DNA of 44,105 nucleotides from Bacteroidales bacterium (GTDB lineage Bacteria; Bacteroidota; Bacteroidia; Bacteroidales; VadinHA17). Location: contig JANTGF010000032.1 in assembly GCA_024763075.1 (NCBI GenBank), positions 1 through 44,105 on the forward strand. The letters are read 5' to 3'. This document shows positions 20,070-22,177 of this stretch, one piece after another (position 1 is the first letter of the stretch; each line of letters starts with the position of its first letter). A program made the position numbers and the translations under genes. The notes beneath the pieces are model-generated. The model was not told the origin of the DNA, searched no databases, and worked only from the letters and a program-made list of their open reading frames with translations.

Positions 20070-20243
20070 TTACATGTTTGAAATATTTTCATCACCAAAC
20101 TCTGAACATTTCAGAAGGGTAGCACCCTCCGTTTGCCTTACAAAATCAGCAACCCAAATATTCGAACCTTCCACAAAAGGAATTACCGGGAAGTCAGGAA
20201 TATTTAATACACCCATGCTAATCGTAATCTTTTCTCCATTCAT
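20070..20243 (-). pseudogene. 57-codon ORF with isocitrate-dehydrogenase-like N-terminus, in the ferritin leader
   Basis: This short open frame (ATG at 20243, stop at 20070) encodes KITISMGVLNIPDFPVIPFVEG near its start. That is very like the N-terminus of NADP-isocitrate dehydrogenase (KIxxxnGxLNVPDxPxIPFIEG). After this, where the enzyme has DGTGPDIW, the ORF reads SNIW and then diverges into a polar tail ending in ENISNM. It is either a remnant of an icd gene or a small gene in its own right. It lies 60 bp downstream of a consensus promoter and 38 bp upstream of ferritin, so it would be transcribed with it. With the promoter, it accounts for the 352-bp stretch between ferritin and dnaX. 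Labelled pseudogene for lack of a better class. Confidence 0.5.
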
Positions 20244-20383: not shown

Positions 20384-22177
20384 TTACTCAAAATCAAGGC
20401 CTAACTGTTGTTTCAGCACTTTAAGATTTGGGTTTTTCTCACTCATAAATTCAAACTTTTCTTCCTGAGTATAAGGTTTTTTCGAGTCTTTATCTGACTT
20501 TATGAGAGTGGTCTCAATGGTAATATTATCATTTTTCAATTCCTTGCGCAGAAATACCAGCAAGTCAGGTTTCAGAAATTTAGTAAAATCCTCATCCTGA
20601 TTGGCATTTTGCATTTCCACCCGGATTTTTGCATCTTCCATCAATTCTGGTGTTTGCATCCGTAAAGTAATCGAAAGGCGTGGCCGTTCCTCCTTTATTT
20701 TCTCGGCAAACTCCTTCCATTTCCCCAGTAAATCTTCCGGTTTAAACGGATTATCCTGAATTACTTCCTGTTTTCTTTCAACCAAAATCTTATCATCTCC
20801 GCCGGCCTCACTTGTTTTAAATGCTCCTTTCAGTCCGTCTTTAATGGATGTGGTTTTGGGTTCGTATGCAGGCTTATTCTCGCTTACTTTCTTTTCTGAA
20901 ATCTTTACTTCAGGAACTTCTGCTTTTTTTTCAGGTTCCGAAGCATATTTCAGATCCGGTTTGGTTTTTTCTGATTCTACACTCTTTTCATCAACCACTT
21001 TAGGCGTATTCTCCGAAGGTTCAGATATGCTCTCTTTTTTTTTCTCAGGAATTGTATGGTTTGTTTTGCTCTCCGCTTCTTCTGTCTGGTTTAATCTGGT
21101 AATCTTAATCAGTGCCAATTCGGTAAGTAATCGCTGGTTTTTGGACTGACGAAACTGTACATCGGCAGAATTCAATATCTCAAGCGAATTAAATATAAAC
21201 GAAACCGGACATGTCCCTGCCTGTTTCAGGTACCTTTCCCTGAAGCTTGCTCCAGCCTCCAGCAATTGAACCGTAACCGGATCCTTGCATACAAGCAAAT
21301 CCCGAAGGTGACTGCTTAACCCGGTAACCAAATGATGAGGATCAAAGCCCTTTAACATAATTTCATCCAGCATCAGCAGGCTTTCAGAAATCATTCCTGC
21401 AAGGAAATTCTCAACAAACCTGAAATAATAATCATAATCCAGAACATTCAGGTTTTCGATTACATTTTTATAACTGATCCGGTTACCGGAAAAACTAACA
21501 ATCTGATCAAAAATAGAAAGGGCATCCCTCATTGACCCGTCGGATTTTTGTGCAATAATATGCAAAGCATCCGGTTCGGCTTCCACTTCCTCTTTATCAG
21601 CCACAAACTTTAACCTGGCAACGATGTCATCTACTTTAATCCGGTTAAAATCAAAGATCTGGCAACGGGATAAAATGGTAGGTATGATTTTGTGTTTTTC
21701 TGTTGTGGCAAGTATAAATATGGCATGTTCCGGTGGTTCTTCCAGTGTTTTCAGGAAAGCATTAAATGCCTGAGCTGAAAGCATATGAACCTCATCAATA
21801 ATGTAGATACTGTATTTCCCAACCTGAGGTGGTATCCTGACCTGATCGATCAGATTCCGAATATCATCCACGGAATTATTTGAGGCAGCATCCAGCTCAT
21901 GAATATTGAACGACCTTGATTCATTAAATGCCTGACAGGATTCACAAACATCACAAGCTTCAATCTCCCCGGAAATATTATTGCAATTGATTGTCTTTGC
22001 CAGAATTCTGGCACAGGTCGTTTTACCAACACCCCTTGGACCGCAGAAAAGATATGCATGAGCCAGATGATTTGACTTAATTGCATTTTTCAAGGTTTTT
22101 GTAACTGTCCCCTGTCCTACAACAGAATCAAAAGTTACAGGTCTGTATTTACGCGCAGAAACAATAAAATTCTCCAT
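20384..22177 (-). CDS. dnaX: DNA polymerase III subunit gamma/tau
   Basis: This 597-residue clamp-loader ATPase has Walker A GPRGVGKT (46-53), zinc-site cysteines C65, C75, C78 and C81, Walker B IIDEVH (126-131), sensor 1 LATTEKHK (156-163) and the SRC arginine finger (170-172). Domain III ends near residue 362. A charged, low-complexity linker (about 365-475) follows, then a C-terminal tau domain that binds the polymerase in other species. An A9 run sits in codons 379-381 of the linker; slippage by -1 would end translation after residue 385 and give a gamma-length protein. A weak promoter lies at 22232-22239. Confidence 0.97.
   Translation of the reverse strand: MENFIVSARKYRPVTFDSVVGQGTVTKTLKNAIKSNHLAHAYLFCGPRGVGKTTCARILAKTINCNNISGEIEACDVCESCQAFNESRSFNIHELDAASNNSVDDIRNLIDQVRIPPQVGKYSIYIIDEVHMLSAQAFNAFLKTLEEPPEHAIFILATTEKHKIIPTILSRCQIFDFNRIKVDDIVARLKFVADKEEVEAEPDALHIIAQKSDGSMRDALSIFDQIVSFSGNRISYKNVIENLNVLDYDYYFRFVENFLAGMISESLLMLDEIMLKGFDPHHLVTGLSSHLRDLLVCKDPVTVQLLEAGASFRERYLKQAGTCPVSFIFNSLEILNSADVQFRQSKNQRLLTELALIKITRLNQTEEAESKTNHTIPEKKKESISEPSENTPKVVDEKSVESEKTKPDLKYASEPEKKAEVPEVKISEKKVSENKPAYEPKTTSIKDGLKGAFKTSEAGGDDKILVERKQEVIQDNPFKPEDLLGKWKEFAEKIKEERPRLSITLRMQTPELMEDAKIRVEMQNANQDEDFTKFLKPDLLVFLRKELKNDNITIETTLIKSDKDSKKPYTQEEKFEFMSEKNPNLKVLKQQLGLDFE
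21035..21043 (-). other. dnaX: A9 slippery run in dnaX, predicted gamma-producing slippage site
   Basis: On the coding strand codons 379-381 are AAA AAA AAA, preceded by GAG and followed by GAGAGC. With one extra A (or a -1 shift) the frame reads Arg-Glu-His-Ile and then TGA, giving 385 residues. With one A lost, the frame stops at a TAG 20 codons past the run. A9 slippage in dnaX is known in Thermus thermophilus, where transcriptional slippage makes gamma. Confidence 0.7.

Follow-up and report, generated by a model that had tools for sequence, protein, structure and literature searches.

The window considered here is the whole 44,105-nucleotide stretch that was analysed (contig JANTGF010000032.1 of a Bacteroidales bacterium, VadinHA17), and its minus strand carries a dnaX gene in which tau is encoded as a single frame. 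A run of nine A's lies within that frame behind the domains that gamma and tau would share. The features of the gene are as follows.

20384..22177, minus strand: dnaX, with tau as a single frame of 597 codons (597 aa), from the open reading frame and NCBIfam.
21104..22177, minus strand: domains I–III (about residues 1–358), common to gamma and tau, from TIGR02397 and Pfam.
21035..21043, minus strand: candidate A9 slippage run, codons 379–381, phase 0, from the sequence, with runs of the same kind in relatives.
21021..21023, minus strand: TGA at which the predicted gamma (385 aa) would stop if one A is gained or the frame shifts by −1, from the sequence and the translation of the A10 form.
20977..20979, minus strand: TAG that would close the product at 399 aa if one A is lost, or at 400 aa if two are gained, from the sequence and the translations of the A8 and A11 forms.
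20384..21034, minus strand: the tau-only part, linker and C-terminal domains (codons 382–597), from relatives (e.g. G003) that match query residues 1–597.
20924..20931, minus strand: another A run, shorter than the first (A8, codon 416), from the sequence, not claimed as a programmed site.

The gene product matches NF011531 (DNA polymerase III subunit gamma/tau, NCBIfam) over residues 1–596 with 809 bits, against a cut-off of 685, and its sequence relatives of solved structure include E. coli DnaX (3glh, 1jr3). Residues 6–359 correspond to TIGR02397 (dnaX_nterm, NCBIfam), and Pfam places PF13177 at residues 22–180 and PF22608 at residues 185–231, with domain III (PF12169) at residues 243–365 scoring 21.3 bits, under its cut-off of 24.4. 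Between dnaX and a 170-codon open reading frame, which we take by its look to be ferritin-like, is a further one of 57 codons (20070–20243, minus strand).

On the minus strand the letters around the run are ...CCTGAG AAAAAAAAA GAGAGCATATCTGAACC..., with codons 379–381 reading AAA AAA AAA at 21043–21035. The nine A's reported at these codons by an earlier, sequence-only reading are exact, and so is their placement behind domain III: the domain ends at about residue 359–365 (TIGR02397, PF12169), and the run starts some 14–20 residues further on, about 63% along the gene. Scripted translation of the gene at different run lengths gives 399 aa for A8, 597 for A9, 385 for A10, 400 for A11 and 598 for A12. 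The A10 form has the C-terminus ...KKKREHI*, as had been predicted for a gain of one A or a −1 shift. The companion prediction, that loss of one base would also soon reach a stop, holds in that a stop exists, but this stop is 19 codons away, in the +1 frame, and not directly behind the run, the −1 frame being closed after 4 codons. At the A8 run of codon 416 one base gained or lost gives 422 or 423 aa; this run was set aside as a slippage site, being shorter than the usual run length.

By itself the run in the window gene is little evidence of programming, because its linker is rich in lysine: with the protein held fixed and the codons of the 255-nt linker redrawn from the gene's own usage, a run of at least nine A's (A9+) arises in 57% of redraws. 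The proximity of the two stops (4 and 19 codons) is equally unremarkable. The dnaX run is the sole A9 of the 44-kb window, where dinucleotide shuffles expect 11.1, and A8 is observed 7 times against 30.5 expected; long A runs are thus avoided in the window. Avoidance of A runs in many AT-rich genomes has been linked to slippage, and replication slippage may contribute, as described by Baranov et al. (PMC1088944). The genome as a whole holds 180 A9 9-mers on both strands in 4.59 Mb. A sample drawn from the first 30 places listed for these 9-mers, and so from the first contigs, contains 24 distinct A9+ runs; 14 of them lie in the sense of an open reading frame of at least 100 aa, and the rarity of A9 in the genome was therefore rejected as proof of programming.

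The relatives of the gene are more informative than the gene itself. Genes for dnaX were collected by searches over relatives, phylum, class, family and order, together with fetched stretches and 80 named loci, and the resulting 403 rows were reduced to 395 distinct genes by removal of exact duplicates. In the first 243 genes the run was sought from 15 nt before to 240 nt past residue 356. The relatives search excluded L011 (cut before the linker) and L030–L032 (loci without a dnaX N-terminus, being other clamp-loader genes or a fragment). The sample takes in every one of the 48 class-level matches and 44 of the 147 phylum matches listed, the latter hand-picked to spread over families and so not a random draw; this phylum and class sample is without G246 (29 nt left on its contig) and G239 (156 residues only). 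The family sample comprises 50 of 54 matches, G001, G372, G375 and G367 being cut or partial. From the order outside the family, 59 of 112 matches (the ones ranked in the top 30 listed, one in every three or four of the remainder, and the ones already collected) were joined to two earlier order genes to give 61. The named loci are 79 of the best 80 of 591, L375 (88% identical to the window dnaX) being cut.

A run of A9–A13 lies behind domain III in 291 of the 395 distinct Bacteroidota genes. The longest runs of lengths 2 to 8 number 2, 16, 30, 12, 21, 16 and 7, and those of lengths 9 to 13 number 50, 207, 27, 4 and 3, with a peak at 10 and a dip at 8. Among the first 243 genes A9+ is found in 188, the order contributing 15 of 30 genes, the class beyond it 149 of 169 and the phylum beyond the class 24 of 44. 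In the window's own GTDB family the run is carried by 42 of 50 genes, including all 11 of genus g11, which have A10 at 50–54% GC; the eight members without A9+ include G004 (71% identical) and all three of genus g2, and two of the eight have A8. The sole relative of the same genus, G001, is cut off by its contig end before the linker. Outside the family, only 28 of the 61 order genes have the run. Family f62 carries A9–A10 in all five of its genes, at a GC of 0.64–0.69. Conservation among relatives had been set beforehand as a check on the sequence-only reading, and the family and phylum counts are in its favour.

Among the named loci (best 80 of 591), 52 of 79 have A9+, and carriers of A10 include three Hymenobacter (GC 0.57–0.65), two Rufibacter, six Pedobacter and one Dysgonomonas. 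The Bacteroides and Prevotellaceae among the named loci listed have no A9+ (A3–A7), except L406, a metagenome bin labelled Bacteroides sp., which has A10. The first 188 run-bearing genes have their runs in phases 0, 1 and 2 in 28, 116 and 44 cases, and position and length vary as well, so that what appears to be conserved is a function and not a set of exact codons.

It might be expected that codon usage alone would place long A runs in lysine-rich linkers, but across the relatives the run is present far beyond chance. With proteins held fixed, A9+ is found in 127 of 176 one-frame genes against 49.4 expected, a comparison which, like the others of observed with expected counts given here, overstates the number of independent cases, as congeners are not independent. 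At a GC of at least 0.55 it is found in 9 of 22 one-frame genes against 0.24 expected, and in the ten run-bearing genes of this GC range AAA makes up 30% of the lysine codons in domains I–III. The domains I–III of 243 genes (254,220 nt) hold one A9+ and no T9+. Conservation of a KKK motif in the protein was rejected as the cause, since phase and residues differ (KKK, EKKN, EKKS) and the run occurs in GC-rich genes.

The stops behind the run tell a similar story. Both other frames are stopped within 10 codons in 189 of 211 run-bearing one-frame genes, against 72.6 expected from synonymous redrawing; taken by frame, a +1 stop within 10 codons is found in 193 (103.9 expected) and a −1 stop in 207 (151.1 expected). 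Control positions thirty codons past the run (58 of 210, 45.4 expected) and fifty codons upstream of the domain III end (74 of 211, 62.5 expected) are much closer to expectation, and run-less genes have no such excess either at the usual place (22 of 96, 17.9 expected) or at their longest A run (19 of 96, 16.8 expected). Stops in both frames are found in 33 of the 42 run-bearing members of the window's family against 10.5 expected; outside four well-sampled genera the excess is weak (5 of 9, 2.8 expected). The stops go with the run and guard both frames, as they do in Thermus (PMC5009743). In the window gene, too, stops lie close behind the run in both frames as in the Thermus type, though the +1 stop, at 19 codons, exceeds the 10-codon limit used here.

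In some relatives the zero frame does not continue into tau at all. A zero-frame stop before codon 430 occurs in 81 genes, of which 79 have A9+ before the stop, 78 of them within 7 codons. With an HMM built from the C-termini of one-frame tau proteins, the tau C-terminus is located in 75 of the 79 two-frame genes, 65 of them with tau at −1 and 10 at +1, and in 74 of the 75 the tau frame stays open past the run (64 at −1, 10 at +1). In these 74 genes tau appears to need a slip, because its C-terminus is open from the run in another frame and the zero frame is stopped. The one exception is L359 (genome G435, family f145; A10), in which the zero frame continues for 44 codons after the run; its tau is at −1, and a stop one codon after the run shuts that frame, which places the frame change downstream of there unless it is an error. 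Four two-frame genes have no HMM match: L244, L410 and L448, in which the −1 frame is open to the end of the locus, and L246. The cultured species Carboxylicivirga sediminis (L392) also has a two-frame gene. The window gene is not of this kind, its zero frame being intact over 597 codons.

Several genes fall outside these patterns, among them L029 and L192, the two of the 81 that have no A9+. L029 (genome G018, family f2) is a two-frame gene without an A run (longest A4), in which the zero frame ends at codon 377 and tau is in the +1 frame; it has a different recoding signal, is truly broken or was wrongly sequenced. L192 (genome G247, 0.5 Mb, gene GC 0.19) ends at 353 codons without a run, and no match to the tau C-terminus HMM was found in the three forward frames behind its end; this may be a reduced genome that keeps only a gamma-like DnaX. 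In the order, the open frame is shorter than 430 codons in 19 of 114 rows, and one (G426) has a match that ends early. The linker of L017 (genome G010) has A10 and then a stretch of N in a repetitive linker with an apparent later frame change, probably an assembly gap.

The run, the stops, their joint conservation and the relatives with tau in another frame behind the run are all seen in the sequence, and on this basis the A9 of the window gene is probably a programmed transcriptional slippage site of the kind found in dnaX of Thermus thermophilus, from which both gamma and tau would be made. In copying the run, RNA polymerase would gain or drop A's. Tau of 597 (or 598) aa would come from messages that contain 9 (or 12) A's, and those with 8, 10 or 11 A's would meet a stop behind the run and yield gamma-like proteins of 385 or 399–400 aa, containing the clamp-loader domains I–III without the C-terminal part of tau. 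We infer the occurrence of the slip in this organism, its stage (transcription rather than the ribosome), its frequency and the role of gamma. The earlier proposal that this organism makes both gamma and tau is supported by the run and stops in relatives and by the 74 two-frame genes, with the making of gamma predicted from them.

The known systems offer several points of comparison. In Thermus thermophilus, programmed transcriptional slippage occurs at an A9 in dnaX (Larsen et al. 2000, as described in PMC1088944 and PMC5009743). The window gene is alike in having one frame for tau, a sense-strand A9 and stops behind it in both other frames, with gamma predicted from messages whose length is changed by other than a multiple of three, and it likewise has at least nine A's behind the gamma part in a run conserved beyond codon usage. 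It differs in that the T. thermophilus run lies seven-eighths along the gene instead of about 63%, right behind domain III, in that the phyla are different, and in that slippage was measured there and is predicted here. Antonov et al. (2013; GeneTack, PMC3711429) describe 17 two-frame dnaX genes in 12 genera, nine with 10 A's, for which transcriptional realignment was proposed, and name Chlorobi among them. As there described, these genes have an A run behind the gamma part, but gamma is the zero-frame product and tau needs the slip, the reverse of the window gene; the 74 relatives are two-frame genes of the same definition and the window gene, with its single frame, is not.

In E. coli, dnaX uses a −1 ribosomal frameshift at A_AAA_AAG with a Shine–Dalgarno sequence and a stem-loop, as described in PMC5009743 and PMC3711429, and the shift on all-A codons is weaker in that species according to the former. 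The outcome there is the one predicted here, a slippery run of lysine codons letting the tau gene yield gamma as well; the window run, however, is longer and pure A, with stops in both frames and without a stem-loop or Shine–Dalgarno sequence that is consistent across the run-bearing genes. Caulobacter likewise has two DnaX forms, but its gamma is described as a product of proteolysis, without a change of frame (PMC5009743).

One alternative to transcriptional slippage is programmed −1 ribosomal frameshifting of the E. coli type. It would operate on a faithful message, with a slip on A_AAA_AAA that leads to the same TGA and the same 385 aa. The −1 stop is near (4 codons), and the linkers of run-bearing one-frame genes contain 64 in-frame A_AAA_AAG, 51 of them with a −1 stop within 5 codons, with 8 and 4 the corresponding numbers in run-less genes. 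The window site itself reads A_AAA_AAA and then GAG, and is not the in-frame A_AAA_AAG of E. coli. Only one lysine tRNA (UUU), as in E. coli, is seen among the 30 of 36 tRNA matches listed for the genome, and the argument from two lysine tRNAs that applies in Thermus therefore does not speak against a ribosomal shift here and was dropped. A stimulator-bearing candidate in Chlorobium is also named in a 2016 review (PMC5009743). Yet run lengths peak at 10, beyond what a ribosomal heptamer requires: such a site needs only six A's and a G, and longest runs of 6–8 are found in 44 of 395 genes against 284 with runs of 9–11. Moreover, 10 two-frame genes have tau at +1, and the excess of stops extends to the +1 frame (193 of 211, 103.9 expected) and is not confined to the −1 frame. 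Rfam gives no match over the window dnaX, and no consistent Shine–Dalgarno or stem-loop signal is found around the run across 290–295 run-bearing genes. There are slight excesses, of upstream Shine–Dalgarno-like 5-mers (22 of 295 rows, where other parts of the genes predict 11.8) and of stable downstream folds (mean z −0.67 against −0.21; −0.41 against −0.15 in shorter windows), the downstream means in families with three or more genes ranging from −1.4 to +0.6, and these were not taken as signals. Because the runs exceed the heptamer need, tau occurs in both directions, both frames are stopped and no stimulator is consistent, transcriptional slippage would fit best, and we regard a ribosomal shift as unlikely.

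It is also conceivable that the run in the window gene is a chance product of a lysine-rich linker in a genome that prefers AAA, without a programmed product here even if relatives use such a site. The redraws that give A9+ more than half the time accord with this, as do the distance of the +1 stop and the lack of the run in part of the family (8 of 50 genes) and of the sample from the rest of the order (33 of 61). Against it stand the strong family excess of stops in both frames (33 of 42, 10.5 expected), the excess of the run in GC-rich relatives and the position of the window run at the usual place behind domain III, and chance seems to us improbable to much the same degree as the ribosomal shift. 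There remains the matter of sequence quality. Homopolymers are prone to sequencing error and many of the genomes are draft assemblies, so the true run length might be other than nine and the in-frame product differ, or the two-frame genes might be artefacts. The window frame, however, continues unbroken through 597 codons, at least four two-frame genes (L188, L197, L203, L206) are in single-contig assemblies, and the two-frame form agrees across congeners: all nine sampled genes of g32 in f17 end at codon 361, and the form is shared by 5 of 5 genes in f65 and by 6 of 6 fetched in f29. An error of this type is very improbable as a general explanation, and programmed transcriptional slippage is the reading carried forward here.

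If slippage at the run fills all three frames, and both frames other than that of tau end soon, then a base gained or lost in or near the run would merely swap which subunit is templated and which depends on the slip. The dnaX A run of Bacteroidota may therefore act as a self-buffering frame switch that has flipped many times between one-frame and two-frame forms, with a slippage-dependent tau, presumably essential, being common; on this wider reading we find ourselves evenly balanced. The zero frame ends behind the run in 79 of 395 genes, and both architectures occur within 10 of 94 families. On a FastTree tree of 395 domain I–III sequences, parsimony gives 51 changes in run presence, 47 in phase and 37 in architecture (290 labelled run-bearing genes), the last an upper figure as the tree is approximate. 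Run length is also related to the direction of tau: of the genes whose tau lies at +1, 8 of 10 have A11–12, and of those whose tau lies at −1, 6 of 65 have A11–12 and 59 of 65 have A9–10 (Fisher 6.8e-6, with kinship not accounted for). The longer runs with a +1 tau fit the idea of a frame switch.

How much of this is new requires some care. The sequence-only reading had supposed the site to be undescribed in this lineage, and this stands insofar as the titles and abstracts of open-access literature yielded no paper on a phylum-wide dnaX site or on the one-frame form in Bacteroidales, which is not proof of absence; it must be qualified in that two-frame dnaX genes at 10-A runs are already published for other genera, as described in PMC3711429. 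A 2012 review states that most bacteria do not keep dnaX frameshift signatures (PMC3290774). The window gene has the same design as Thermus, and it is the breadth of the site and the switching of architecture that look new.

The pattern bears on whether bacteria other than a few models make a short DnaX. In E. coli the C-terminal part of tau binds the helicase. This part also binds the polymerase, as described in PMC3290774. Should the pattern hold, gamma and tau would be made by slippage of RNA polymerase across much of a large phylum, and in many of its members tau would depend on that slippage. Genome annotators would then be warned not to take every dnaX broken at a run of 10 A's for a pseudogene or an error of sequencing. 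In our judgement few uses of programmed slippage in core genes would be as wide, and dnaX would be a natural reporter of slippage in Bacteroidota.
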